A stretch of DNA of 32,676 nucleotides from a virus: positions 1 to 32,676 of IMG/VR virus record IMGVR_UViG_3300023443_001045; one strand, written 5' to 3'. The notes beneath the pieces were generated by a model. The model saw only the letters and a list, made by a program, of their open reading frames with translations, was not told where the DNA came from and ran no database searches. Both the position numbers and the translations under genes were made by a program. Positions 17,931-32,406 of the stretch are shown here, one piece after another; the first letter of the stretch is position 1, and each line of letters begins with the position of its first letter.

Positions 17931-18095
17931 CTATTCCTTCATCATCTCATTTAATTCATTTTCAAAATCAGCCATCTTGAGTCCTGTCCATTTTTGTTGC
18001 TTAAAATCCCATTCTGTTTCCCACGCAACACTAGTATGTTGTGCTAAATATAAGATAGCTTTTGCTAATATTTTGATCTTTTCATCATTAGTCAT
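17931..18095 (-). CDS. Small hypothetical protein, 54 residues
   Basis: Starts at ATG 18095, which overlaps the stop of the upstream 45-residue gene, with AAGGATG as ribosome site. The sequence is MTNDEKIKILAKAILYLAQ followed by an acidic, tryptophan-containing helix and ends in FENELNEMMKE. Predicted to be a small helical soluble protein. No function recognised. Confidence 0.55.
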   Translation of the reverse strand: MTNDEKIKILAKAILYLAQHTSVAWETEWDFKQQKWTGLKMADFENELNEMMKE

Positions 18096-18229
18096 ATCAT
18101 CCTTCTCTTTCTAGTTTTCCAACCTTCAACACTCGCCCGAGAATATTTATCATGCCGTATAGCATTTAATCGGGTCGATATGCGGTCGTGTCGCCACCAG
18201 AATAACCAGTTTTTAAATCTCTTAATCAT
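18092..18229 (-). CDS. Small basic protein, 45 residues
   Basis: Starts at ATG 18229, overlapping the stop of the GHKL-like gene (TAATG), with GGAGGC about eight bases upstream. Very basic and aromatic: MIKRFKNWLFWWRHDRISTR and a KTRKRRMI end. It shares four bases with the start of the next gene. The composition suggests nucleic acid or membrane binding, but I do not recognise it. Confidence 0.5.
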   Translation of the reverse strand: MIKRFKNWLFWWRHDRISTRLNAIRHDKYSRASVEGWKTRKRRMI

Positions 18230-21919: not shown

Positions 21920-21960
21920 TATAAAATAAATTTACACAAAATATAAAATAAATATTTACA
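21920..21960. repeat. Direct repeats between divergent promoters
   Basis: TATAAAATAAAT occurs at 21920-21931 and 21942-21953, each followed by TTTACA (21931-21936 and 21955-21960). The 22-base period is about two helical turns, suitable for a dimeric regulator. The second TTTACA is also the -35 of the rightward promoter. Confidence 0.6.
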
Positions 21961-21983
21961 ACTCTTTTTGGTTTGTATATAAC
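21955..21983 (+). promoter_or_regulatory. Rightward early promoter (sigma70-like)
   Basis: TTTACA (21955-21960) and TATAAC (21978-21983) are separated by 17 bases. It would transcribe the structured RNA region, the tRNA-like gene, the HTH gene and possibly on to tRNA-Pro and RtcB. It lies about 45 bases from the leftward promoter, forming a divergent control region. Confidence 0.6.
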
Positions 21984-22014
21984 AGTAATTGCTAAGACGT
22001 TACATAGGACGCGA

Positions 22015-22104
22015 TTAACTCTAACATAGGAGGCTACTATGATAACATGCGGGGAAAGACCGCAGGATAAGATTGGAACTTGTTCGAGAAGATGAAAGAT
22101 CTTC
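22015..22104 (+). ncRNA. Repeated structured RNA element, copy A
   Basis: Begins with TTAACTCTAACATAGGAGG, a hairpin that pairs CTCTA with TAGGAG and so includes the SD-like AGGAGG. Next come ATGATAAC (22039-22046), a hairpin at 22048-22064 (TGCGG/CCGCA, loop GGAAAGA), the linker GATTGGAACTTGTTCGAG and a second hairpin at 22088-22104 (GAAGAT/ATCTTC, loop GAAAG). A homologous copy lies on the minus strand at 32262-32353 with the same order of parts. The ATG could instead start an 18-residue leader (MITCGERPQDKIGTCSRR). Function unknown. Confidence 0.6.
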
Positions 22105-22247
22105 GTCGCAGTAGAGTACAATAAGGCATTTATGGATAGCTTTGGCTATTTGGAAATTCAGATCCTTGACCATGGGATTATGCCGAATATATGGTAAACC
22201 GCAGTCAGGCGGGCCGAGGTGGGCGGTTAATCCCACCAACTAATTAT
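22105..22247 (+). other. Further structured non-coding stretch before the tRNA-like gene
   Basis: No convincing ORF. Several pairings are visible: GGCAT (from 22124) with ATGCC enclosing ATAGC/GCTAT, then AACCGC with GCGGTT, and GGTGGG with CCCACC just before the tRNA-like gene. It may be the 3' domain of the RNA beginning at 22015 or a precursor region processed at the tRNA-like 5' end. No homologous downstream part follows copy B. Confidence 0.4.
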
Positions 22248-22369
22248 GCCGCGTTAGCTCAATGGTAGAGCGTCAAGCCACTTCGTGCACGAATGCTTGA
22301 AGATGCAGAATAGAAATGGGTGCTCAGAGACTGTTTCTAATATCGGTTCAATCCCGGCACGCGGTCCCA
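22248..22369 (+). tRNA. tRNA-like gene with expanded central region, anticodon undetermined
   Basis: The outer parts are those of a tRNA: acceptor GCCGCGT pairs with ACGCGGT (seven pairs, one G-U), followed by C and encoded CCA. The D-arm GCTCAATGGTAGAGC is standard and the T-arm loop is TTCAATC. Between D- and T-arms there are about 70 bases instead of 23. They form an extended hairpin (TCAAGC/GCTTGA with inner TTCG/CGAA) and a second hairpin (TAGAAA/TTTCTA). No ordinary anticodon arm can be drawn, and no simple intron excision restores one. Confidence 0.55.
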
Positions 22370-22390: not shown

Positions 22391-22600
22391 ATGTTATTAA
22401 AAAAAGCAATCCAGGGCAGAGGACAAACAATGAAAGAATTCGCGGCGGAGATTGGAATTCATAGGTCTTATTTGTCAGGCATTAATACTGGCTTGCAAAG
22501 GCCAAGTTTCTTGCTCGCGCGGAAAATCGGCAAAGCATTAAATATAAGTCCAATAACGATAATTAAATTTAAAGATAGTTTAACAGATTCTGCTATGTAG
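22391..22600 (+). CDS. Small XRE/Cro-type HTH DNA-binding protein
   Basis: I choose ATG 22391, with AAGGA seven bases upstream; a longer frame would start inside the tRNA-like gene. The 69-residue protein is essentially one helix-turn-helix domain: TMKEFAAEIGIHRSYLSGIN for helices 2-3 and RPSFLLARKIGKALNIS for helices 4-5. Cro-like size and position beside divergent promoters suggest it regulates one or both, perhaps through the repeats at 21920-21960; this is inferred. A 60-nt hairpin follows the gene. Confidence 0.75.
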   Translation: MLLKKAIQGRGQTMKEFAAEIGIHRSYLSGINTGLQRPSFLLARKIGKALNISPITIIKFKDSLTDSAM

Positions 22601-22606
22601 CAGATA

Positions 22607-22666
22607 GGCGGTTCCCTGTATAGTAACACAAAGTTCCCTCCCCCTTCTTTGTGTTATGGAACCGCC
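22607..22666 (+). ncRNA. 60-nt two-part hairpin, copy 1
   Basis: Lower stem GGCGGTTCC (22607-22615) pairs with GGAACCGCC (22658-22666); upper stem TAACACAAAG (22624-22633) pairs with CTTTGTGTTA (22647-22656). An eight-base bulge on the left and one base on the right join the stems. No U-tract follows, so it is not a classical terminator. It lies 30 bases before the gene at 22696. A second element of exactly the same length is at 24916-24975. Confidence 0.65.
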
Positions 22667-22695
22667 AACAAATTTAACGCCCGAAAGGACATACA

Positions 22696-23100
22696 ATGAC
22701 AGAAGAAATTAAATGGGAAGAATGGGATGTTGCCAAAAGTCTAAAGACCTTTATTGGCAGAACATTTGATAAAATTGAAAATACCGGCGATGAACTCAAG
22801 ATGACTTCGGGAGAAATAGCATATACTTTTTTCCATAGCCAAGATTGTTGCGAAAATGTAACCATCGAAGATGTTTGCGGGGACCTCACGGATCTTATTG
22901 GCACGCCATTGCTTGTTGCTGAGGAAATAACTAGCGATAAAAATCCTGAAGGCATAGAAAAAGAATATCAAGATGATAGTTTTACTTGGACATTTTATAA
23001 ATTTTCAACGATTAAAGGTTCCGTTACTATTAGGTGGTACGGTGAAAGCAATGGATATTATTCTGAAGGGGTTGATCTTAAAAGAGAATTTATAACTTAA
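22696..23100 (+). CDS. Conserved phage hypothetical (DUF7448-like)
   Basis: A 134-residue protein preceded by AAAGGA. The sequence contains FFHSQDCCENVTIEDVCGDL with DLIGTPLLVAEE, then SFTWTFYKFSTIKGSVTIRW and GESNGYYSEGVDLKRE. This combination (HxQDCCE, aEe, TWTFYKfxTxKGxVxxRW, SNGYYSExV) is what I recall for a widespread phage family of unknown function, DUF7448. It sits between the hairpin and tRNA-Pro. The Cys-Cys and His could bind metal, but no role is established. Confidence 0.65.
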   Translation: MTEEIKWEEWDVAKSLKTFIGRTFDKIENTGDELKMTSGEIAYTFFHSQDCCENVTIEDVCGDLTDLIGTPLLVAEEITSDKNPEGIEKEYQDDSFTWTFYKFSTIKGSVTIRWYGESNGYYSEGVDLKREFIT

Positions 23101-23127
23101 CAAACATGCGTTAATACGGGCAATATA

Positions 23128-23205
23128 CAGGGTGTAGCTTAGTCTGGTTAAAGTGCCGCACTTGGAATGCGGAGATCGTAGGTTCAAATCCTCCCACCCT
23201 GACCA
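23128..23205 (+). tRNA. tRNA-Pro(UGG)
   Basis: A complete tRNA: acceptor CAGGGTG/CACCCTG pairs over seven bases, with C1 as expected for proline tRNAs; the D-arm is GCTTAGTCTGGTTAAAGTGC. The anticodon arm CCGCA-CTTGGAA-TGCGG gives anticodon TGG. The variable loop is short, the T-loop is TTCAAAT, and discriminator A is followed by an encoded CCA. It ends 12 bases before the RtcB start codon. Confidence 0.93.
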
Positions 23206-23216
23206 AAGGAAAAAAG

Positions 23217-24443
23217 ATGACAAAACAAAAATATAGTTATCATAAAACAGATGGCGTACCATTAAAATTATGGGATAGTCACGGTGCTTTTGAAGAGGGG
23301 GCCATGGATCAACTCCGCAATGTTGCAAGCCTTCCTTTCATCCATAATCACATAGCCGGTATGCCCGATGTTCATTGGGGTATGGGCGCGACAATAGGCT
23401 CCGTGATCGCCACTAAAGGCGTTATCATTCCTGCTGCTGTTGGCGTTGATATTGGCTGTGGCATGATGGCTGTTAAATTAAGTTTAAAAGCGTCTGATCT
23501 TCCTGATAACTTGCATCAAATACGTTGCGATATTGAGGCTGCAGTCCCTCACGGACGTACAGATAATGGCGGTGCAAATGATAAAGGCGGCTGGGGCGAC
23601 ACAATATCAGCTGACGCATCTAATCGCTGGAATGGTCTTGTAGAACGCTATAATCAAATAATTTTCAAGCACCCAAAAGCTAAAGCATATAATGATTTCA
23701 GGCACATGGGCACACTGGGCACCGGCAACCATTTTATCGAAATTTGTCTAGATGAAAATGACTATGTTTGGGTAATGCTTCACTCTGGTTCCCGTGGGGC
23801 AGGTAACAAAATTGGGATGTATTTCATCAACGCTGCTAAAAAGGAAATGGAGCGTTACCATATCGATAAGTTTTTGCCTGACCGAAATCTTTCCTATATC
23901 GTTGAACACACAGAATTGTTTGATGATTACGTTAATGCAGTTAATTGGGCGCAGGACTTTGCTTTAGAAAATAGAAAATCTATGATGACGGCAATTTTGG
24001 GCGTTTTACACAAGCATTTTGAATTTACAGTTGATGACCATGCGGTGAATTGTCATCATAATTATATCGACCGTGAAAACCATTTTGGCTCTAACGTCTG
24101 GATCACTCGTAAAGGTGCCGTTCGCGCCCGCAAAGGTGATTTGGGCATCATCCCTGGGTCAATGGGAACAGGCTCTTTTATCGTTAGAGGTTTAGGCAAT
24201 AAGGAAAGTTTTTGTTCATGTTCTCATGGTGCTGGTCGCGTCATGTCTCGCAATCAAGCCAAAAAAGAAATTAGCTTGGAACAGCATGCGAAAGCAATGA
24301 TTGGAATTGAGGCAAGATTGGATAAAGATGTTTTGGACGAAAGCCCCGCCGCCTACAAGGATATTGGTGAGGTTATGAAGGCCCAAGATGACCTTGTTGA
24401 AATTGTCACAAGATTAACACAAATTATAAATGTTAAGGGCTAA
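23217..24443 (+). CDS. rtcB: RtcB RNA ligase (GTP-dependent, 3'-phosphate to 5'-OH)
   Basis: Joins RNA 2',3'-cyclic phosphate or 3'-phosphate ends to 5'-OH ends via a guanylylated histidine and Mn ions. The 408 residues have the length of E. coli RtcB and all key motifs: MPDVHWGMGATIGS (49-62), AAVGVDIGCGM with Asp78 and Cys81, GTLGTGNHFIEI (165-176), LHSGSRG with His189, CHHNY at 279-283, IIPGSMGTGSFIV (311-323) and SCSHGAGRVMSR, whose His337 is the guanylylation site. It directly follows tRNA-Pro, with AAAGGAAAA as ribosome site. I infer repair of cleaved tRNA or rRNA during infection. Confidence 0.95.
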   Translation: MTKQKYSYHKTDGVPLKLWDSHGAFEEGAMDQLRNVASLPFIHNHIAGMPDVHWGMGATIGSVIATKGVIIPAAVGVDIGCGMMAVKLSLKASDLPDNLHQIRCDIEAAVPHGRTDNGGANDKGGWGDTISADASNRWNGLVERYNQIIFKHPKAKAYNDFRHMGTLGTGNHFIEICLDENDYVWVMLHSGSRGAGNKIGMYFINAAKKEMERYHIDKFLPDRNLSYIVEHTELFDDYVNAVNWAQDFALENRKSMMTAILGVLHKHFEFTVDDHAVNCHHNYIDRENHFGSNVWITRKGAVRARKGDLGIIPGSMGTGSFIVRGLGNKESFCSCSHGAGRVMSRNQAKKEISLEQHAKAMIGIEARLDKDVLDESPAAYKDIGEVMKAQDDLVEIVTRLTQIINVKG

Positions 24444-24461
24444 AAAGGTTCTTACACAACC

Positions 24462-24610
24462 GCCCGATTGGGCACAGGAAATAGTGACAGGTGAGGGTAC
24501 AGGACGGGTGAGATATTGATTCCCGCGAGATTGCCCAAGAGCGACCGATTTTCATGAGTAACGCCTAGCCTGTCGCTTTCTGAACGATATTGATTTAAAT
24601 GCCCGAGGGC
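24462..24610 (+). ncRNA. Structured intergenic region after rtcB
   Basis: Opens with the hairpin GCCCGATTGGGC (24462-24473), the same unit that recurs in the right-hand genes. A nine-pair stem AGTGACAGG (24483-24491) with CCTGTCGCT (24569-24577) encloses CGGG/CCCG (24505-24508/24522-24525) and a GCCCAA that could alternatively pair with TTGGGC of the first hairpin. A second short hairpin, GCCCGAGGGC (24601-24610), precedes the AAAGGAGA site of the next gene. No ORF over 20 codons is convincing. Confidence 0.5.
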
Positions 24611-24624
24611 AAAGGAGACAGAAG

Positions 24625-24879
24625 ATGATTAAATATAAAACGGACGGATGGAATTCCCTCATAGAGAGGATTGAGGTTGAGAGAGAAACCGACTCCAGTG
24701 TATGGATTAAGGGGCGGAGATGTGCAAAGGCGTCATCATATAATAACTATTTTGATAAGTGGGATCAGGCAAAAGATTACCTCTTAAAAGGAGCCCTACG
24801 AAACCGTGACAATAAAAGACACCAGCTAGATCGAGCTGATAAAGAATTAAAAAAGATCAAAGCACTCACCAAACTTTAA
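24625..24879 (+). CDS. Hypothetical protein, 84 residues
   Basis: Starts at ATG 24625 with AAAGGAGA upstream. Basic protein (MIKYKTDGWNSLIERIEVER), a SSVWIKGRRCAKASSY strand region and a helical, lysine/arginine-rich C-terminus (HQLDRADKELKKIKAL). May bind nucleic acid by charge. It lies between two structured non-coding elements. Family not recognised. Confidence 0.58.
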   Translation: MIKYKTDGWNSLIERIEVERETDSSVWIKGRRCAKASSYNNYFDKWDQAKDYLLKGALRNRDNKRHQLDRADKELKKIKALTKL

Positions 24880-24915
24880 TCAACTTTAACGCCTATTGAA
24901 GAAAGAAGGTGAACT

Positions 24916-24983
24916 GGCGGCTCCGTAAGTTAATATAAAAGGATTAGATAAGAGCTTTATATTGCTGGAGCCGTCTTTTTTTT
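24916..24983 (+). ncRNA. 60-nt two-part hairpin, copy 2, with U-tract
   Basis: Lower stem GGCGGCTCC (24916-24924) pairs with GGAGCCGTC (24967-24975); upper stem TAATATAAA (24931-24939) pairs with TTTATATTG (24956-24964). Compared with the copy at 22607-22666, one lower-stem pair is C-G instead of T-A, a compensatory change, and another is G-T. Eight T residues follow (24976-24983), so this copy could work as a terminator or attenuator. The GGAG site of the next ORF comes directly after the T-tract. Confidence 0.65.
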
Positions 24984-24994
24984 GGAGATCAAAG

Positions 24995-25075
24995 ATGAAT
25001 TTTTTTAAAGGTCTGATGATATGGTTGCCAATTTGTTTGGCGTTATGGGCTTTATTTTTCTGGATGATCCTATGA
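24995..25075 (+). CDS. Very small membrane peptide, 26 residues
   Basis: Starts at ATG 24995 with GGAGATCAAAG upstream and ends by overlapping the VRR-NUC start (ATGA). The peptide is almost entirely one hydrophobic span (GLMIWLPICLALWALFFWMI). It may be a membrane peptide or serve to couple translation of the nuclease to the hairpin upstream. Supported by ribosome site and overlap only. Confidence 0.45.
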   Translation: MNFFKGLMIWLPICLALWALFFWMIL

Positions 25076-25461
25076 AAGAATCAGATGTACAGAAAGCCAT
25101 TATTCAGTGGTGCGGATTTAGATTAAAAAAAGATGTTACCTATTGGTCAATCCCGAATGAAAGAAATCCCATTCACAATATGGGAGGACTTAAGGCCACG
25201 GGATTGCAAACAGGTGTATCTGATTTAATGTTCGTCTGGAATGACGGGGTCCTAAAAAATCTCTATATTGAAGTGAAGCGTCCCACGACTTACAAAATAG
25301 GCAAGCATGGTAAAAAGATAATTGACCAGCGCGGCGGCATTCAGTCCGACAGTCAAAAAGAATTCCAGGAACGTGTCGAGGCTCTAAAATGCCCATATCA
25401 TATAATCGATAATTTAACGGATTTTATAAATCTTATGAAAAATTACGGATTGGAAAAATGA
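25072..25461 (+). CDS. VRR-NUC domain nuclease
   Basis: I choose ATG 25072, giving MKESDVQKAIIQW, the usual start of this family; a longer frame from 25021 would overlap the small membrane peptide. The 129 residues carry the PD-(D/E)xK core: Glu3 and Gln7 in the first helix, GVSDLMFVW with Asp51, LYIEVKRP with Glu67 and Lys69, and QSDSQKEFQERVEALKC. In phages such nucleases are linked to Holliday-junction or flap processing in replication. A HTH gene follows one base after the stop. Confidence 0.83.
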   Translation: MKESDVQKAIIQWCGFRLKKDVTYWSIPNERNPIHNMGGLKATGLQTGVSDLMFVWNDGVLKNLYIEVKRPTTYKIGKHGKKIIDQRGGIQSDSQKEFQERVEALKCPYHIIDNLTDFINLMKNYGLEK

Positions 25462-25462
25462 G

Positions 25463-25963
25463 ATGGCGAATATAGAAAAAATTAAAAGCTTGGCCAAGCA
25501 CGGTTATAATGCAATTGAAATAATGGCAATGTTAAATGTTGGTGGTCGCATTGAAACATTCCGAAAGTTTCTTAGAGAAAACGGCATTAAAGCGAAGCGC
25601 CGCATAGTTAAGGATTGTCATGACCAAATAGTTGAACTTTCAAATAACGGACTTTCAACATTTAAAGTCGCGAAAGAATTACAATTTTCTTATATCACTA
25701 TTAAAAATTATAAATCAAAAAATTCAATTGTGACCGCCATTAGAAAATCTACTCTAAAATTACCAAAACCAGACTATCGATCAAAACAGCTGGTTGAAAA
25801 TGCTATTTTAAAATTAAGACGTACGGGGCGTATCGTTTATGATTACAGCGTCTTGGCAAATGGCGGATCGACGCCCAGGGATTATACTGGATATACAGTT
25901 GTTAATGATGTGAATAATGTCTTGAATGACCGTCAATTATGTCGGCTGGCAAGAAAGATATAA
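25463..25963 (+). CDS. HTH DNA-binding protein
   Basis: A 166-residue basic protein containing two possible helix-turn-helix units: SLAKHGYNAIEIMAMLNVGG (residues 9-28) and the later VELSNNGLSTFKVAKELQFS with YITIKNYKSK (residues about 56-85), the latter similar to recombinase or transposase-type HTHs. C-terminal part (RIVYDYSVLANGGS) unrecognised. Spacing places it in the rightward early operon after the nuclease. It could be a late regulator or a small-terminase-like DNA-binding protein; neither is proven. Confidence 0.6.
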   Translation: MANIEKIKSLAKHGYNAIEIMAMLNVGGRIETFRKFLRENGIKAKRRIVKDCHDQIVELSNNGLSTFKVAKELQFSYITIKNYKSKNSIVTAIRKSTLKLPKPDYRSKQLVENAILKLRRTGRIVYDYSVLANGGSTPRDYTGYTVVNDVNNVLNDRQLCRLARKI

Positions 25964-25965
25964 TA

Positions 25966-26127
25966 ATGGAAATATTCAAAATAGGGTTTGTCATAGCCAT
26001 CTCTATTGCGCCAGGTGTGTATTTGGGTTTATTGCTTTGCAAATATAGTCAGAGATTTTCTGTTGCAATGGCTCTGATATATTGCGCCGGATTTTTATTG
26101 GGATGGAACATTGTAGTGATGAATTAG
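25966..26127 (+). CDS. Small two-span membrane protein, 53 residues
   Basis: I choose ATG 25966, immediately after the HTH gene stop, rather than an upstream in-frame ATG inside that gene. Two hydrophobic segments, IGFVIAISIAPGVYLGLLLC and ALIYCAGFLLGWNIVV, separated by KYSQRFSVAM. No family recognised. Confidence 0.52.
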   Translation: MEIFKIGFVIAISIAPGVYLGLLLCKYSQRFSVAMALIYCAGFLLGWNIVVMN

Positions 26128-26131
26128 GAGT

Positions 26132-26174
26132 GAGCGCCCACCGGGAGAGAATGAGGAAGGATCAGCGGGCGCTC
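26132..26174 (+). repeat. Intergenic GC-rich hairpin
   Basis: GAGCGCCC (26132-26139) pairs perfectly with GGGCGCTC (26167-26174) around 27 bases that include GGGAGAG and an ATG. GC-rich in an AT-rich setting and related in placement to the recurring intergenic hairpins. No T-tract follows, so a terminator role is doubtful. Confidence 0.5.
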
Positions 26175-26238
26175 GAGATGAATAAACCCATTATATCATA
26201 GTGAAGTATTTACTCAAGGAAAAACTTTAGGAGAAAGG

Positions 26239-26418
26239 ATGTATGTGATGTGTGAATGGACAAGAGACGAAATAGATTATTTCTGCCGTTGGTATCCGAC
26301 TTTGCCAACAAAGAGACTTGCGCTACGAATGCATTGGATATGGGGAACTTTAAGACCTGTTTGGTATCTAGGATTATGTGCGGGTAGGTGGCATGTGAAG
26401 AAGGAGAAGAGACAATGA
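26239..26418 (+). CDS. Small HTH-like protein, 59 residues
   Basis: Starts at ATG 26239 with AGGAG six bases upstream. The sequence MYVMCEWTRDEIDYFCRWYP followed by TLPTKRLALRM resembles the WT-x-x-E(I/E)-xx-L-x-x-xYP...LA-xxl pattern of small SANT/Myb-like or HTH proteins found in phages. C-terminus basic (RWHVKKEKRQ). Its stop overlaps the next start (ATGA). Confidence 0.5.
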   Translation: MYVMCEWTRDEIDYFCRWYPTLPTKRLALRMHWIWGTLRPVWYLGLCAGRWHVKKEKRQ

Positions 26419-26585
26419 TAGTCCAAATACCCACCATATATAACATAGATCATCTTAGGGATATTATGGCAGACGATCTCAAGATTTATGATAAAACTGA
26501 GGAGATTACTCCCAAGCTCGAACATTCCGTGGGAAATTATTGTTATGCAGCGGCGCGTTGGACAAAAATGAAAGAAAAGGAATAG
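26415..26585 (+). CDS. Small hypothetical protein, 56 residues
   Basis: ATG 26415 overlaps the previous stop and has GAGAAGAGA upstream; an upstream in-frame ATG at 26388 lies within the previous gene. Acidic helical protein (NIDHLRDIMADDLKIYDKTE) with a C-terminal YCYAAARWTKMKEKE. Not recognised. Confidence 0.5.
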   Translation: MIVQIPTIYNIDHLRDIMADDLKIYDKTEEITPKLEHSVGNYCYAAARWTKMKEKE

Positions 26586-26588
26586 AGG

Positions 26589-26849
26589 ATGTTTAAAAAG
26601 CTACGCATATGGCTCATTACGTTCATTTGCCCAAAAGACATAACAATTGTGGTTAATGCCAGGGACAAACATTTAAACAGGACCATTCATATATGGGCAA
26701 AATATCCAGTTTATTTTATAAAGTGTTCAATGTCTGCTCCAATAGTTGTTCATCCGCCAAAAGTTAAATCTGGCTTTAAAGAATACATTGCAGCAGAGAG
26801 GTTTTATGAGCAAAGACGGTGGTTAAAAGAAAGATTAAAAATTATTTGA
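26589..26849 (+). CDS. Hypothetical protein, 86 residues
   Basis: Starts at ATG 26589 with AAAGGAATAGAGG upstream. Basic protein with an N-terminal hydrophobic stretch (RIWLITFICP) and a C-terminal helical FKEYIAAERFYEQRRWLKER. The middle contains a PPKVKSG loop. No family recognised. A strong promoter begins at its 3' end. Confidence 0.52.
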   Translation: MFKKLRIWLITFICPKDITIVVNARDKHLNRTIHIWAKYPVYFIKCSMSAPIVVHPPKVKSGFKEYIAAERFYEQRRWLKERLKII

Positions 26850-26874
26850 GTATTTGTTTACACAAGTGTATAAT
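26846..26874 (+). promoter_or_regulatory. Promoter with internal palindrome before the replication genes
   Basis: TTGAGT (26846-26851) and TATAAT (26869-26874) are 17 bases apart. The perfect inverted repeat TACAC-AA-GTGTA (26859-26870) sits in the spacer and touches the -10, a position where a bound repressor would block RNA polymerase. The nine bases TTTACACAA here also occur at 21931-21939 in the divergent control region. Confidence 0.65.
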
Positions 26875-26974
26875 CTTACCGTGGTGAAAAAATGATTTTG
26901 GTTGCTCTTAATCAGGTTTTTGCTTACCAACCCGCCACATCCCCTTTTTTTGGTAAGTAAGTTTTGGTAGGTAA

Positions 26975-27766
26975 ATGAAAATAAACAAACTCCCCTTTAT
27001 AAGATGGTATGCATCGGATTTCCTGGCCGGAACACGCGGTATGAAGGCTTCTGAGGTTGGAATATATACTATATTGTTAAATCTAATGTATGAGCAATGC
27101 GAACCGTTGCCATTGGATATAGATTATTTATCAAGCCAGTGTGGTTGCAGAAAACCAGCCTTTTTAAAATCTTTAGAAAAATTGAAATCAAGAAACAAAA
27201 TAATACTTGTGGATGGATGCCTTTGGAATGAAAGAGTCCAAAAAGAGTTCACTTTTCGTGCAAAAAAGAGTCAGATAGCTACACAAAATATTAATGAACG
27301 ATGGAAAAAACACAATAAAATCAATGGCGATGAGATACAAACGTATAATTCTGGTAATACGGAAAAAATACTATATCAGAAGCCAGAAACCATAAATCAT
27401 AAAGATATAAAAGATATAGATAAATCTATATCCAAAAAACCACTAGCAAAAAAAGGATGTCGAATCGATGAAAAGTTTAAAGATGGCGACCAAATCCCTG
27501 ATGACTACCTTGCAGCAGCAACAAAAAAAGGGCTCGGCAGGGAAAGGGCTTGTTCTGAATTTGAAAGATTCATTAACTACTGGACAGCAGCAAGCGGTAG
27601 TTACGCAATCAAACGGGATTGGCTGGCCACATGGCGCAATAGGGTGTCTATCGTTGTCGAACGGGATGGAAATAAAAACACCAATCGCAACGGGCAATCA
27701 AAACCAGCCAACGCATCCCCAATTGACGCAGCAACAGAAATCATTGATGAGGGACTTAGTCTATGA
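26975..27766 (+). CDS. DUF1376-type replication initiation protein
   Basis: A 263-residue protein. The N-terminus PFIRWYASDFLAGTRGMKAS and EVGIYTILLNLMYEQCEPLP form the DUF1376 domain (a winged-helix-like fold found in phage replication proteins such as YdaU). The C-terminal part (CSEFERFINYWTAASGSYAI, KRDWLATWRNRV) matches a module often fused to phage initiators (F-xxFxxyW.aksg..a.k.DW..tWrnW). It probably opens or marks the phage replication origin. The stop is overlapped by the next gene. Its promoter is about 100 bases upstream. Confidence 0.75.
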   Translation: MKINKLPFIRWYASDFLAGTRGMKASEVGIYTILLNLMYEQCEPLPLDIDYLSSQCGCRKPAFLKSLEKLKSRNKIILVDGCLWNERVQKEFTFRAKKSQIATQNINERWKKHNKINGDEIQTYNSGNTEKILYQKPETINHKDIKDIDKSISKKPLAKKGCRIDEKFKDGDQIPDDYLAAATKKGLGRERACSEFERFINYWTAASGSYAIKRDWLATWRNRVSIVVERDGNKNTNRNGQSKPANASPIDAATEIIDEGLSL

Positions 27767-28220
27767 TCAAGAGCGACTGCGAGGGATGAATGCGAAATTA
27801 CCAATACCAAGAATACAACCGGATGATATGGCGGGATTGTGCAAAGTTTATATCCAGGGTATGGCCGCATTAGAACCCACGCCAAAAAATAACATCGTGA
27901 AGGTGACCAGCATTTTGAAGGTTCTTTTCCCCGGCGCAAAGACCGATGCAACATCATTGAAAATATTATTGTTGAAATATGCCCAAGTTTTATCAGATGA
28001 AGGATACAGCTTTCATGCAATTGACAAGGGGATAGACGCCTGTTTGCTCAATCACAAGAGCGACTTCATGCCAACCATTGAGACATTGAACAGCTATATC
28101 AAACCTATTCAATTAAAGCTGAAACAGGAAATGAGTTTGTTGGGCCAGGTTCTCGAACGCAACGCTGAGCATTTAGCCCTGCCGGCACCACAGAAACAAA
28201 CAGGGCAGGATCAGTCATGA
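27747..28220 (+). CDS. Hypothetical protein following the replication initiator
   Basis: The frame is open further left, but that part only mirrors the initiator gene in another frame. I place the start at ATG 27747 (157 residues), with ATG 27786 (144 residues) as alternative; neither has a strong ribosome site. The protein is helical (LPIPRIQPDDMAGLCKVYIQ, SLKILLLKYAQVLSDEGYSF) and ends with a basic/glutamine tail. By position it could be a helicase loader or replication accessory factor, but no Walker motif is present. It overlaps the methyltransferase gene by four bases. Confidence 0.6.
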   Translation: MRDLVYDQERLRGMNAKLPIPRIQPDDMAGLCKVYIQGMAALEPTPKNNIVKVTSILKVLFPGAKTDATSLKILLLKYAQVLSDEGYSFHAIDKGIDACLLNHKSDFMPTIETLNSYIKPIQLKLKQEMSLLGQVLERNAEHLALPAPQKQTGQDQS

Positions 28221-28966
28221 AGAAAGTTACGATCGGCAATGCAACGCTATACCATGGCGATTGTCTTGAGATTATGCCAACTTTGGACAAGGTTGATTGT
28301 GTGGTGACAGATCCACCATATGAATTTGATGCTTCGGGTGCTGGAATATTTCGTAGTAATCGTATTTGTATGGACAAGATACAGGAAAAAAATCTCGATC
28401 AGGGTTTTGATATTTATATTTTGGATTTGTCACTAGATCTTGGTGCAATATCGATCGCAGTTTTTTTTCATTGGGATCAACAACGAGTAATTTCTGATTT
28501 CTTTGAAAGGTCAGATCTTAAAAAATCCGCCTTATGTGTCTGGCAGAAAACGAATCCTATGCCAGTAGCAAATAAACATTATCAGCCGGAACTAGAATAT
28601 TGGTGGCATTCATGGAAAAAACCGTTTGGAGTGTGTGGAAACGGATTGCTTGAAAAGAAGCGTGTTTACACCGGACCTGTAGGTCAGTGTGATATTGATC
28701 ATCCTACAGTTAAACCGCTCCCCTTGATGGAAAAGATTATCAGAAATGCGAGTCAAGCCGATTTTATAGTTCTCGATCCATACATGGGTAGCGGCACAAC
28801 GGGCGTGGCATGTGCAAAGCTAAACCGAAAATTCATCGGTATTGAACGGGACGAAACATATTTCAACATAGCCTGTGAACGGATACAGGCAGCATATGAT
28901 CAACCAGATTTATTTATTGAACAGCCAGAAAAAATCGAGCAAATTGTTATGGAAGACATAAAATGA
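28217..28966 (+). CDS. Site-specific DNA methyltransferase (beta class)
   Basis: Transfers methyl groups from S-adenosylmethionine to adenine N6 or cytosine N4. DPPY (catalytic) lies at residues 32-35, before the SAM-binding DPYMGSGTTGVAC at about 187-199, which is the beta-class order. The HPTVKPLPLMEKII block (x-H-P-t-x-KP-l) just upstream of it is typical. The 249 residues fit phage solitary methyltransferases. No restriction gene is adjacent, so it probably protects phage DNA from host restriction or marks replication. Target sequence cannot be predicted. Confidence 0.88.
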   Translation: MKKVTIGNATLYHGDCLEIMPTLDKVDCVVTDPPYEFDASGAGIFRSNRICMDKIQEKNLDQGFDIYILDLSLDLGAISIAVFFHWDQQRVISDFFERSDLKKSALCVWQKTNPMPVANKHYQPELEYWWHSWKKPFGVCGNGLLEKKRVYTGPVGQCDIDHPTVKPLPLMEKIIRNASQADFIVLDPYMGSGTTGVACAKLNRKFIGIERDETYFNIACERIQAAYDQPDLFIEQPEKIEQIVMEDIK

Positions 28967-29238
28967 ATAGCATAAAAGAGCAATGCCGCAGGATATGCAC
29001 TGGCCAGGAGCCCCCAATAGATCCTGATAGGCTCGCCGCGCCGGGAAAGTTCAATCCTCGCGGAAATTTTACAAACTGGCAAGTATATGAATATATGGGT
29101 ATGGGGATTCCCCTTCCAGAATTAAGTAAACCCCATGATCCAGAAAAGAAGGAACGACAAGCCTACATCACCAGAATGATAGAAGAGAGTAATCCAGGAC
29201 AAGATCCAAGATATAAATACCATACACAAAAACATTGA
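28963..29238 (+). CDS. Hypothetical protein, last gene of the rightward operon
   Basis: A 91-residue protein starting in an ATGA overlap with the methyltransferase. N-terminal Cys pair (EQCRRICTGQEPP), a proline-rich middle and a GKFNPRGNFTNWQVYEYMGM motif, then a charged helical end. I do not recognise a family. A strong terminator follows 13 bases after the stop. Confidence 0.58.
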   Translation: MNSIKEQCRRICTGQEPPIDPDRLAAPGKFNPRGNFTNWQVYEYMGMGIPLPELSKPHDPEKKERQAYITRMIEESNPGQDPRYKYHTQKH

Positions 29239-29251
29239 CGACAAACAAACT

Positions 29252-29279
29252 AGCCCCCGGCAAAAACCGAGGGCTTTTT
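29252..29279 (+). terminator. Rho-independent terminator
   Basis: AGCCCCCGG (29252-29260) pairs with CCGAGGGCT (29267-29275), with one mismatch, around the loop CAAAAA, followed by TTTTTA. It ends the rightward operon at the convergent junction with the minus-strand genes. On the minus strand the A-run before the stem gives a weaker terminator. Confidence 0.85.
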
Positions 29280-29505: not shown

Positions 29506-29853
29506 TTAATTTGTGGTTTGTTTTCTGTGTTGATTTTCATGTTCCATAACGAACGGCTCAAACCATTGATCAATCAAATATCCTGCCGCTGCTATTTTGT
29601 GTTCATGCTTAGGCTCAAATGATCCCATGAATGCGTTTAAAGCTCGCATTGCCCCACTAAGATCAACTCCGTCTCTTGGTGATAGACCATGATCAGCAAG
29701 GTTGCCTCCATTAAAGAATAGTTTTGATGCAATTTTACAGAATTTATTCCTATGATAATCCTGAAATTCTTCAGGTAAGTCATTCATCTTTGGCGCAAAA
29801 TCTATACGCCCAAATGCCACATCTGCATCTGTAATTTCTGGTATCTTATGCAT
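29506..29853 (-). CDS. Conserved phage hypothetical protein, 115 residues
   Basis: Begins MHKIPEITDADVAFGRIDF and has PEEFQDYHRNKFCKIASKLF, then RDGVDLSGAMRALNAFMGSF and EPKHEHKIAAAGYLIDQWFE. I recall this pattern (IPEITDAD-xAFG ... KHEHK-x-A-x-xaYLxxxWF) from many phages of Gram-negative hosts, without a known function. Ribosome site AAAGGAAAG follows an intergenic hairpin. Soluble and probably a small helical accessory protein. Confidence 0.68.
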   Translation of the reverse strand: MHKIPEITDADVAFGRIDFAPKMNDLPEEFQDYHRNKFCKIASKLFFNGGNLADHGLSPRDGVDLSGAMRALNAFMGSFEPKHEHKIAAAGYLIDQWFEPFVMEHENQHRKQTTN

Positions 29854-29869
29854 AGTCTTTCCTTTCGTT

Positions 29870-29881
29870 GCCCAAGCGGGC
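29870..29881 (-). repeat. Intergenic hairpin GCCCGCTTGGGC
   Basis: Complete copy. On the minus strand it is preceded by AATTTAAACACAAAC and followed by AACGAAAGGA, the ribosome site for the gene starting at 29853. Confidence 0.7.
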
Positions 29882-29894
29882 GTTTGTGTTTAAA

Positions 29895-30056
29895 TTAATC
29901 GTAAGCGTTTCCGTGCGTCCTAAGTGCACTCGAATTTTTGGTCACGATGCATTTAGAAAGCTTCTGCGTTGAGTCAGATGTTTTTCTTAATTCAATCAGA
30001 ATTTCCTCTAACAATTGAGTTGTTCTGTCTGGTTTCTTTTTAAAGAAATTTAACAT
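29895..30056 (-). CDS. Small hypothetical protein, 53 residues
   Basis: Starts at ATG 30056 with GGAG seven bases upstream. MLNFFKKKPDRTTQLLEEIL is followed by a helical and basic region ending in ALRTHGNAYD. One Cys. Too short to classify. It sits between two copies of the intergenic repeat, like its neighbours, which supports a real gene. Confidence 0.5.
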   Translation of the reverse strand: MLNFFKKKPDRTTQLLEEILIELRKTSDSTQKLSKCIVTKNSSALRTHGNAYD

Positions 30057-30067
30057 GTCGTATCTCC

Positions 30068-30081
30068 GGGCGTTTAAGTTG
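30068..30081 (-). repeat. Partial intergenic repeat
   Basis: On the minus strand AACTTAAACGCCC is followed by GGAG instead of the loop and GGGC arm, so the ribosome site of the gene at 30056 replaces the hairpin's second arm. Confidence 0.5.
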
Positions 30082-30088
30082 AAATTAA

Positions 30089-30670
30089 TTACAGTCCATC
30101 AGACCCGTTCTCTGATTTATAAACAGCCTCTTCTTTTTCACACTGCTTATAATATTTGTCCATCATTTTCATGGTGCATTTTTTCCAATTAGGAAATGTT
30201 TTTTTGCTGGTATATTTGTTGAATTGATGGCGGACCCTAACGCCTAGCGTAACGGTATCGTCTTCGCCAAAGATGGGATGAATAGGTAATACGATATATG
30301 CATCATTCTGCTTATAACAAACCTTCATCCATCTCTTTTTAAACGCAAATTGTTTATCGTTCCATTTCCAGGTTTGATTTTCCAATACCTTTTTTCTACT
30401 ATAGATATTAAAAGCAACGTTAGACCACCAACATAACGACCCATCATCAATGCTTTTCAATAAGTATCTAGTGCAAAATGAACTATCTGCTACCTCTATT
30501 TCCATAACCCAAGATAGATACCATTTTGAAGGCGGTGCCGAGCATAGAGACACTAGGTCACCAACGATAGGCGCATTGTCGATATAACATGTTTCCCAGT
30601 CTTTTTGATTAATTGTTGGGAAAGCAAGTAAGCTGCTTAAAATATCAATTTTGGCTCTTTCGAATGTCAT
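30089..30670 (-). CDS. Hypothetical protein, 193 residues
   Basis: The longest gene of the right block, starting at ATG 30670 with AGGAGAG upstream. Rich in aromatic and cysteine residues (SKWYLSWVMEIEVADSSFCT, DGSLCWWSNVAFN), with a basic C-terminal half (FPNWKKCTMKMMDKYYKQC). Probably soluble. No family recognised. It follows directly on the rRNA-like element at 30699-30849, and its leader could be part of the same transcript. Confidence 0.58.
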   Translation of the reverse strand: MTFERAKIDILSSLLAFPTINQKDWETCYIDNAPIVGDLVSLCSAPPSKWYLSWVMEIEVADSSFCTRYLLKSIDDGSLCWWSNVAFNIYSRKKVLENQTWKWNDKQFAFKKRWMKVCYKQNDAYIVLPIHPIFGEDDTVTLGVRVRHQFNKYTSKKTFPNWKKCTMKMMDKYYKQCEKEEAVYKSENGSDGL

Positions 30671-30698
30671 ATTCTCTCCTATAGGTGTTAAAAATTAA

Positions 30699-30849
30699 TT
30701 TAATAAGTGGGCAGGAAACTATTTTCCTTGGCCTTCGTACTCATAGACGCAAATCCTGTATTTTCGTGTGTGGGACTATCACCCTTTCAGTTAAACTTTC
30801 CAGCTTATTCCACTACTTGCTATCATGTCTGGCCTGCCCACTCATTAAA
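30699..30849 (-). ncRNA. 23S rRNA domain I-like RNA closed by a 17-bp stem
   Basis: On the minus strand the interior reads AGTGGAA (30814-30808), CTGGAAAG, AGGGTGATAGTCCC (to 30772), ACACGAAAAT (30769-30760) and GAGTACG (30742-30736). The order and near-identical spacing match 23S rRNA domain I, about positions 255-390 in E. coli numbering recalled from memory. The arms 30699-30715 and 30833-30849 form a 17-pair helix in the minus-strand transcript, with one G-U. In the plus-strand transcript that pair would be A-C, so the minus strand is the functional sense. A plus-strand ORF here is a shadow. Confidence 0.72.
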
Positions 30850-30868
30850 TCGGGCATCTGTGTTTAAA

Positions 30869-31099
30869 TTAACAGCGCATTAAAATATCGTTCGGGTTCT
30901 TTTCCGGCCAAGTGTTATGTGCTTCATTTAATTCTTCTTTGGTTGCCACGGTTTCGCTTTCCCGTAAAGGATCTATCTCATGTTTAAAAACAAGATTAAG
31001 ATGATTTTTAATTAACTCGGTTTGTTCTGCCGGAATTGCGCTTGGGTTTGCAACTTCAAAATATCCCTGTAACCAATAACAAAAATCTATGCTGTTCAT
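30869..31099 (-). CDS. Conserved phage hypothetical protein, 76 residues
   Basis: Starts MNSIDFCYWLQGYFEVANPS, followed by EQTELIKNHLNLVFKHEIDP. I recall this N-terminal pattern (DFcYWLQGyFE ... ixxHLxLVfxHEIDP) from a small protein common in phages of proteobacteria, of unknown function. RBS AGGAGAAAG follows an intergenic hairpin. Soluble and helical. Confidence 0.68.
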   Translation of the reverse strand: MNSIDFCYWLQGYFEVANPSAIPAEQTELIKNHLNLVFKHEIDPLRESETVATKEELNEAHNTWPEKNPNDILMRC

Positions 31100-31115
31100 T
31101 TTCTTTCTCCTATTT

Positions 31116-31127
31116 GCCCAATCGGGC
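31116..31127 (-). repeat. Intergenic hairpin GCCCGATTGGGC
   Basis: Complete copy, preceded on the minus strand by TTTTTAAAC and followed by AAATAGGAGA, the ribosome site for the gene starting at 31099. The loop GATT is shared with the plus-strand copy at 24462. Confidence 0.7.
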
Positions 31128-31139
31128 GTTTAAAAAGTT

Positions 31140-31436
31140 TTATGTTACCGCAACAATAATTTGTTTTTCGGCTGGTATCATGTTGATAATTTCTTCGAGT
31201 GTTGATGCATGTCCTTCACCGCACAGTTCATCAAGAAGGCCTTCTCTGTTCAAACCAAACTCATGTGTATAAACAGGCCGTTCAAGGGTGGCCTCAATTG
31301 CCTCATGGAAAACTGAAAACGGCATACAAAGCCTATCCTGGAGTAATTGAAATTCTGCTTTCTTACGATCAGTCATTGCGGTATATAATTTGTTTTTTGC
31401 GAATGCCATTGCTTGTTCTTTAGATAATTGTTCCAT
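31140..31436 (-). CDS. Hypothetical phage protein, 98 residues
   Basis: Starts MEQLSKEQAMAFAKNKLYTA and contains RLCMPFSVFHEAIEATLERP and VYTHEFGLNREGLLDELCGE. This CMPF-xx-xHE ... THEf pattern seems familiar from phage accessory proteins, but I cannot name it. AAAAGGAT ribosome site after an intergenic hairpin. Predicted soluble and helical. Confidence 0.6.
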   Translation of the reverse strand: MEQLSKEQAMAFAKNKLYTAMTDRKKAEFQLLQDRLCMPFSVFHEAIEATLERPVYTHEFGLNREGLLDELCGEGHASTLEEIINMIPAEKQIIVAVT

Positions 31437-31458
31437 AGTCTTATCCTTTTGTTGCTAT

Positions 31459-31470
31459 GCCCAAGCGGGC
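31459..31470 (-). repeat. Intergenic hairpin GCCCGCTTGGGC
   Basis: Complete copy between the stop at 31480 and the ATG at 31436; preceded on the minus strand by TTTTTAAAC and followed by ATAGCAACAAAAGGA. Confidence 0.7.
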
Positions 31471-31479
31471 GTTTAAAAA

Positions 31480-31734
31480 CTATTTGACAGGGGCGCAATC
31501 CATACGCGGGCCGCCTGTAGGACGGGTGTTAATTTTCAATGGTTTTTCGTCAACAACTTCTATCTGTTCAACATCAAACCAAACACCATCTTTCAATTCG
31601 CCGTCTTTGCCTAGTTTCTGAGGCTTAAGACAATACTGATCGCATCCAGTAAGATATTTAGCATGTGCAGTGATGATTCCAGTGAAACCGGTTATCAGAC
31701 ATTTAGCTTTTACACCCAATGTAATACTTTTCAT
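31480..31734 (-). CDS. Conserved phage hypothetical protein, 84 residues
   Basis: The N-terminus MKSITLGVKAKCLITGFTGI is followed by AKYLTGCDQYCLKPQKLGKD and VWFDVEQIEVVDE. This is a recognisable phage family pattern (LG-x-x-x-x-D-x-i-TGf-x-Gi-x-t-x-x-x-YLtGC-xqyxvxP ... WFDexxxev) of unknown function, probably a small beta-barrel. It starts at ATG 31734 with AGAAGGAT upstream. Confidence 0.72.
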   Translation of the reverse strand: MKSITLGVKAKCLITGFTGIITAHAKYLTGCDQYCLKPQKLGKDGELKDGVWFDVEQIEVVDEKPLKINTRPTGGPRMDCAPVK

Positions 31735-31756
31735 TTTATAATCCTTCTGTTGTTAT

Positions 31757-31768
31757 GCCCATCCGGGC
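31757..31768 (-). repeat. Intergenic hairpin GCCCGGATGGGC
   Basis: Complete copy with a different loop. On the minus strand it is preceded by AATTTAAACACAGAC, the longer of the two leader variants, and followed by ATAACAACAGAAGGA. Confidence 0.7.
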
Positions 31769-31781
31769 GTCTGTGTTTAAA

Positions 31782-31973
31782 TTAATTCAAGCAAATAATA
31801 TTAAATCCATTTATCAAAATGTTTGCAGTTTTGATCAAGTCGTCATCTTCAAAGCGTGAGTTATTTTGTTCTGATAAAGCCTTATCTGTACAGCACTCTA
31901 AAGCCAGCTTAAGGGTGTGAGCCTCTTTTTCAGTAAGAATAAGATGTATCATAACTCTTTTATCAATTTCCAT
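31782..31973 (-). CDS. Small hypothetical protein, 63 residues
   Basis: Starts at ATG 31973 with GGAGGC upstream. Sequence MEIDKRVMIHLILTEKEAHT, then LKLALECCTDKALSEQN and a helical end with IKTANILINGFNIICLN. The LTEKEAxxLxxAL helix is common in small phage proteins. Function unknown. Confidence 0.58.
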   Translation of the reverse strand: MEIDKRVMIHLILTEKEAHTLKLALECCTDKALSEQNNSRFEDDDLIKTANILINGFNIICLN

Positions 31974-31977
31974 AATT

Positions 31978-31987
31978 GCCTCCGGGC
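31978..31987 (-). repeat. Short variant of the intergenic repeat
   Basis: On the minus strand TTTAAAC leads into GCCCGGAGGC, where the ribosome site GGAGG of the next gene forms part of the second arm. Confidence 0.5.
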
Positions 31988-31995
31988 GTTTAAAA

Positions 31996-32229
31996 TTATT
32001 CTGTATCTAATGATACTGGCGGGTGGACTAGTGAGAAAATTGTTAACCGAACCGGTTTTCCAAAAAGGATTTTGATCCTATTTTTCCAATCAATTTTCCA
32101 CCATGAGAAAAACACTTCACCATTACAATGCACGGGAAGACCTATACATTCTCCATCCTTTTCGCTGTCCCAATTTTTAGGGGCACCCAGAACCTTATCT
32201 GTATATTCGTTATTTATGGGTTTGAACAT
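31996..32229 (-). CDS. Conserved phage hypothetical protein, 77 residues
   Basis: MFKPINNEYTDKVLGAPKNW, then GECIGLPVHCNGEVFFSWWK, IKILFGKPVRL and HPPVSLDTE. This order (N-x-xLgaP-xxWD ... CxxLPVxxxxxxxxSxWxPt ... R-xxxLxGxpvxLxvxgxxHPPVxLxxxx) is one I recall from many phages, without an assigned function. It follows RNA element copy B by about 33 bases and the start ATG has only a weak GAAAGA site. Confidence 0.7.
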   Translation of the reverse strand: MFKPINNEYTDKVLGAPKNWDSEKDGECIGLPVHCNGEVFFSWWKIDWKNRIKILFGKPVRLTIFSLVHPPVSLDTE

Positions 32230-32261
32230 ATTTTGTCTTTCATTGTGTGTTTAAATTAGGT

Positions 32262-32353
32262 GTGGGCCTTTCACCCACTCGACTAAGTTACCACTCAAAG
32301 TCTACAGGCTTTCCCTGTCCGTTATCATTTTATCCTCCTTATGTAGGGGTTAA
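32262..32353 (-). ncRNA. Repeated structured RNA element, copy B
   Basis: Minus-strand order: TTAACCCCTACATAAGGAGG (CCCCT pairs with AGG-GG around the SD-like site), ATGATAAC, hairpin ACAGG-GAAAG-CCTGT (32318-32304), linker GAGTGGTAACTTAGTCGAG, and hairpin GTGGG-TGAAAGG-CCCAC (32278-32262). Stems differ in sequence from copy A at 22015-22104 but keep pairing, and both loops keep GAAAG. The only ORF from the ATG is eight codons. It lies in the leader of the gene starting at 32229. Confidence 0.6.
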
Positions 32354-32374
32354 ATAATCCTCATACTGGATAAA

Positions 32375-32406
32375 GGGGCTATGCCCCGCACCCCGAAAGC
32401 CCCGCC
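32375..32406 (-). other. G-rich palindromic stretch, possible quadruplex
   Basis: On the minus strand GGCGGGGC, TTTC, GGGG, TGC, GGGG and CATAGCCCC follow each other. GGGGC-ATA-GCCCC is a tight hairpin and the four G-runs could alternatively form a quadruplex. Composition is unlike the surrounding AT-rich sequence. The rest of 32354-32451 holds a short ATCC/GGAT hairpin and no convincing gene. Confidence 0.4.

Follow-up and report, generated by a model that had tools for sequence, protein, structure and literature searches.

Two similar stretches of about 90 nt lie on opposite strands of this phage DNA, and the question that they raise is whether they are related structured RNAs and, if so, what they do at the places where they are found. 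The window, that is, the whole stretch that was analysed, is an incomplete virus record of 32.7 kb from a contractile-tailed, temperate-type phage whose tail protein resembles SfV-like and Bordetella phage proteins (23-27% identity). The two copies, here called A and B, were located as follows.

22012..22106, + strand: copy A, whole element (alignment; covariance-model self-match of 104 bits; local alignment significance)
22015-22098, + strand: homologous core of copy A; the last paired base is at 22104
32260..32356, - strand: copy B, whole element (alignment; covariance-model self-match of 113 bits)

When A was compared with the rest of the window, the top local match was B (22015-22098 against 32353-32268 on the minus strand, 71% identity) with a score of 28, whereas in 300 dinucleotide-shuffled windows the mean score was 13.3 (sd 1.2) and the maximum was 19. 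In the MAFFT alignment, which has two 1-nt indels, A and B were identical in 63 of the 95 columns in which both have a base. This homology is discrete, covering about 90 nt, and since the similarity ends at the edges of the element a longer duplication is not its source. The two structured RNAs are thus genuinely homologous, and they lie on opposite strands at the positions that the first-pass annotation had given for them.

Both copies are predicted to fold, alone or with their flanks, into three adjacent hairpins, P1, P2 and P3, with at most two bases between them.

22048..22064, + strand: P1 of A, TGCGG/CCGCA around GGAAAGA; folds, compensatory pairs
22065..22085, + strand: P2 of A, GGATAAG/CTTGTTC around ATTGGAA; folds, one compensatory pair
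22088..22104, + strand: P3 of A, GAAGAT/ATCTTC around GAAAG; folds, three compensatory pairs
32304..32318, - strand: P1 of B, ACAGG/CCTGT around GAAAG; folds, compensatory pairs
32281..32302, - strand: P2 of B, GACT/AGTC and GAGT/ACTT with a 2-nt bulge and the loop GGTA; folds
32262..32278, - strand: P3 of B, GTGGGT/GCCCAC around GAAAG; folds, compensatory pairs

P1 and P3 of both copies carry GAAAG pentaloops on stems of 5-6 bp. What had been taken for a linker between the two GAAAG hairpins is itself the third hairpin, P2, in both minimum-energy folds; its outer four pairs are common to A and B, the register of its inner half differs in each copy, and two pairs of P2 of A are broken in the register of B. 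The fold z-scores were -4.3 (A) and -2.3 (B) for the whole element and -3.75 (A) and -3.3 (B) for the three-hairpin core, which is more stable than its shuffles. The identity between A and B was 14/30 in paired columns compared to 29/35 in unpaired columns (Fisher p 0.003), which shows that the divergence is concentrated in the stems. These stems nevertheless stay paired, as had been claimed for the GAAAG stems: there are six compensatory pairs, five in P1 and P3 and one in P2, against 3.0 in shuffles and 0-3 when the partners were slid, and B retains all 15 of the 15 pairs of P1, outer P2 and P3. When the same 16 stem positions were substituted at random, a mean of 9.3 pairs was left and 15 were reached in 41 of 200,000 trials (P ~2e-4), although this evidence for compensation comes from one sequence pair and is no substitute for a family-wide covariation test. 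All four GAAAG hairpins with at least five pairs in the window come from A and B, but 10 of 300 shuffled windows also reached four and the loop by itself is therefore weak evidence. Judged from the sequence, constant loops and linkers together with divergent but paired stems would be the pattern of an RNA that is recognised through its loops and its shape.

The position of the two copies in the phage is best seen from its transcription units.

16.5-21.9 kb, - strand: recombination unit with an Erf annealing protein and an exonuclease
22391..29238, + strand: unit downstream of A with a Cro-type HTH protein, tRNA-Pro, RtcB, an endonuclease-like protein, a primosomal protein and a DNA methylase-like protein (the last assigned by sequence motifs only)
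29506..32229, - strand: unit downstream of B with seven small proteins of unknown function

A sits between the divergent leftward recombination unit and the rightward unit, in the leader of the latter, and B sits in the leader of the leftward small-gene unit. The units of A and B run towards each other and meet at a strong terminator-like hairpin (29252-29275). Among the three functions that had been guessed at, a cis-regulator, a trans-acting RNA and a leader-peptide switch, the cis-regulator fits this position best, as each copy precedes the first genes of a separate unit.

How might such an element act? The put sites of phage HK022 bring about read-through of terminators without a phage protein, via the zinc-binding domain of beta'. 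putL and putR, the diverged pair that this phage carries in its two early operons, downstream of the promoters, are RNAs of about 70 nt with two hairpins, and each folds into two long stem-loops with a triplex (PMC9378689). In the lambdoid phages, boxB hairpins have GNRA-like pentaloops that serve as binding sites for N peptides, and in P22 boxB a looped-out base contacts the protein (PMC12550061). A and B resemble put in being compact adjacent hairpins in two diverged copies, one per operon, and they resemble nut in having a pentaloop hairpin in early leaders with one site per operon. As to siting, each copy heads a transcription unit, but the promoters are consensus guesses and the Erf unit carries no copy. 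This deployment, a diverged pair on opposite strands, one per operon and close to the 5' end, in which the loops are invariant and the stems vary but stay paired, matches that of put and nut sites, and for this reason we tentatively favour, by analogy, a cis-acting leader RNA that may modify transcription elongation in a put/nut-like manner. Its starting points, namely, the homology, the three-hairpin fold, the compensatory change and the position ahead of two units, are observed; transcription, the binding partner and antitermination we infer. Transcripts of each early-type unit would carry the copy at their 5' end or close to it, folded into P1-P2-P3, with the two identical GAAAG pentaloops probably forming a recognition surface. 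While it is being made, this RNA would stay with RNA polymerase, either unaided or together with a protein that binds its loops, and the polymerase-bound RNA would then lead to read-through of terminators and pauses in the long operon, that is, to processive antitermination.

Several observations set A and B apart from put and nut or do not fit antitermination well. Unlike put, A and B have three short hairpins with GAAAG loops and not two long ones with a triplex, and a ribosome-binding site precedes the hairpins; unlike at HK022 P_L, the leader of the leftward recombination (Erf) unit has no copy of the element. When the covariance model R2 was run unfiltered on positions 20000-40751 of HK022 (NC_002166), the best match was 9.5 bits (E 0.76) and it lay in the late region. 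Unlike nut, each copy has a middle hairpin flanked by two pentaloop hairpins, no boxA is shared by A and B (the aligned segments are CTCTAACA and CCCCTACA, neither with the boxA core), and on this incomplete contig no N-like gene adjoins either copy, as judged by small arginine-rich ORFs preceded by a ribosome-binding site. Elsewhere, at 18092-18229 on the minus strand, an ORF that has a ribosome-binding site encodes a basic, arginine-rich protein of 45 aa, MIKRFKNWLFWWRHDR..., the sole and vague candidate for an RNA-binding antiterminator protein. A and B were assigned to neither put nor nut: they are unlike put in both sequence and fold, and for nut there is neither a boxA nor an adjoining N gene. 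It also counts against antitermination that no third copy was found in the searches made, that inside unit B no strong intrinsic terminator was found on its own strand, and that the conserved ribosome-binding site and ATG are left unexplained. In favour of the elongation reading, no obvious terminator or alternative-pairing expression platform was seen beside the hairpins of A or B.

The features of the 5' half bear directly on the alternatives.

22028..22033, + strand: Shine-Dalgarno-like AGGAGG of A (read directly; identical in B)
32334..32339, - strand: Shine-Dalgarno-like AGGAGG of B (read directly)
22039..22095, + strand: short ORF of A, MITCGERPQDKIGTCSRR, 18 codons (read directly)
32302..32328, - strand: short ORF of B, MITDRESL, 8 codons (read directly)
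21955..21983, + strand: promoter-like TTTACA-17-TATAAC (10/12) upstream of A (consensus match only)

AGGAGG, a spacer of five bases and ATGATAAC are identical in motif and spacing in A and B, and the 5' part as a whole agrees in 26 of 33 columns. The AGGAGG-N5-ATG may serve the short leader ORF, or the flanking TTAAC...ATGAT may be a promoter that starts the RNA at P1. The main rival to the elongation reading is coordinate control of translation or stability, which we consider somewhat unlikely: an RNA-binding protein of phage or host, or else a ligand, would attach to the hairpins and so jointly set the translation or stability of both mRNAs, and the conserved ribosome-binding site and short ORF would be the part that is switched. 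The strict conservation just described argues for it, as do certain predicted folds of A in which either the Shine-Dalgarno or the start codon is base-paired. However, the first recognisable gene is far from A (at 22391, behind the tRNA-like gene) and about 100 nt from the ATG of B. The leader peptides diverge after Met-Ile-Thr (18 versus 8 codons) and end at non-equivalent points of the folded structure, which makes a conserved leader peptide unlikely and leaves the suggested leader-peptide switch poorly supported. The Shine-Dalgarno had also been placed in a small bulged hairpin, which is not supported: no compensatory change was seen there, one pair is mismatched, and the predicted 5' fold around AGGAGG differs between the copies and when the flank is included.

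If TTAAC-N17/18-[TA]ATGAT were a promoter, the element would be a promoter joined to a 5' RNA module, the RNA would start at P1 and AGGAGG would be incidental or an operator, which is improbable. In A the match is TTAACT-17-TATGAT (9/12), and in B the distance from a preceding hairpin, GGGGC-ATA-GCCCC with its short T run, is only about 20 nt, which leaves little room there for another promoter. B, however, reaches only 8/12 at its spacing (TTAACC-18-AATGAT), sites of this type do not exceed their frequency in shuffled sequence, and conservation of the spacer together with an exact ribosome-binding-site spacing would not be expected of a promoter. A better site, the 10/12 site listed above, ends 28 nt upstream of A with a start expected near 21990, although sites of that quality are equally common in shuffled sequence.

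That A and B are small RNAs acting in trans, binding targets via the GAAAG loops or the linker, is quite improbable. The exposed loops are identical in all four hairpins, but no terminator is close behind either copy, the loops are not mutually complementary and each copy lies in an operon leader. No positive evidence was found for the trans-acting RNA that had been proposed. A duplicated site in the DNA (operator, recombination or replication) is very improbable indeed: the copies are inverted and 10 kb apart and their hairpins are also DNA palindromes, but the arms differ and yet remain able to pair, and it is the asymmetric GAAAG spacer that is kept constant, which is the opposite of an operator, and the operator and recombination-site readings were dropped because the stem changes are compensated. 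A CsrA-type reading was dropped because GGA is in only some of the loops.

Further copies were then looked for. The element had been said to be outside the known families, and this agrees with the comparison with Rfam release 15, where nothing reached the gathering score and the lowest E-value for A was a chance 2.8, with none for B. In IMG/VR, exact-pattern scans of six designs (5' half, 3' half and both loops) gave no further copy among the matches listed; those examined fell in coding sequence or at the ribosome-binding sites of ordinary genes, and of the listed matches scored with the covariance model none passed. A pattern scan of 85,000 GTDB species genomes gave 73 matches and no further copy, the best of them, in Vibrio, being inside an aldehyde dehydrogenase gene. 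The covariance-model search of three partly overlapping draws of genomes, 369, 385 and 399 in number, from gammaproteobacteria, alphaproteobacteria and proteobacteria in general, gave no further copy. Its three weak matches of 23-25 bits were rejected: two fall within long coding ORFs, one of them in antisense, and the third is next to an integrase of the integron type. The same search of ten partly related phage records chosen by Erf or sheath, several of them fragments, found no copy; the sheath-based relatives are about 52% identical. BLASTN of A in phages (INPHARED) gave nothing, and BLASTN of B gave only chance matches of 19-28 nt in phages (INPHARED) and nothing in plasmids (PLSDB). Relatives of the neighbouring proteins in Lebethron and Achromobacter phage 2-1 lie within gene runs and not behind leaders. 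Given the scope of these databases, the absence of relatives means that none were detected here. Of the things that had been named as counting against the element, a lack of further copies is what these searches returned, but the covariation between the copies within this genome stands.

At present, A and B are a well-supported structured RNA with a putative function and with relatives not detected in the searches made. In kind they are ordinary, being a phage leader element, and in sequence and fold they are new as far as the searches reach. It is rather unlikely that they found a class of their own among phage leader RNAs, in which a compact module of three hairpins and two GAAAG pentaloops with a built-in ribosome-binding site, used once per operon, controls two convergent operons through one partner. 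RNAs that control phage operons and need no protein, or only small ones, are few; a second independent solution to the put/nut problem would show how readily phages evolve RNAs that modify polymerase or ribosome, and it would provide a compact two-copy system for testing.

Some smaller features of the surrounding DNA were also recorded. Ahead of A there is an imperfect tandem repeat (22000-22033, + strand), TTACATAGGACG followed about 22 nt on by TAACATAGGAGG. The hairpin upstream of B (32373-32385, - strand), which is followed by TTTAT, is terminator- or attenuator-like, and a second GGGGC precedes it that could compete for the same partner. In the unit of A, the RtcB RNA ligase gene (23217-24443, + strand; about 65% identity to Mesorhizobium and Erythrobacter phage RtcB) lies directly behind tRNA-Pro (23128-23205), and the 166-aa protein encoded at 25463-25963 (+ strand) weakly matches families of DNA invertases and homing endonucleases, possibly via an HTH only. 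Finally, 0.9 kb upstream of the RtcB gene, at 22248-22366 (+ strand), there is a tRNA-like cloverleaf that scored 33.1 bits with the Rfam tRNA model and was not called by ARAGORN; its D and acceptor arms are normal, its anticodon loop is 16 nt with the palindrome TTCGTGCACGAA and its variable arm is about 40 nt, and it is possibly an intron-bearing, decoy or decayed tRNA.
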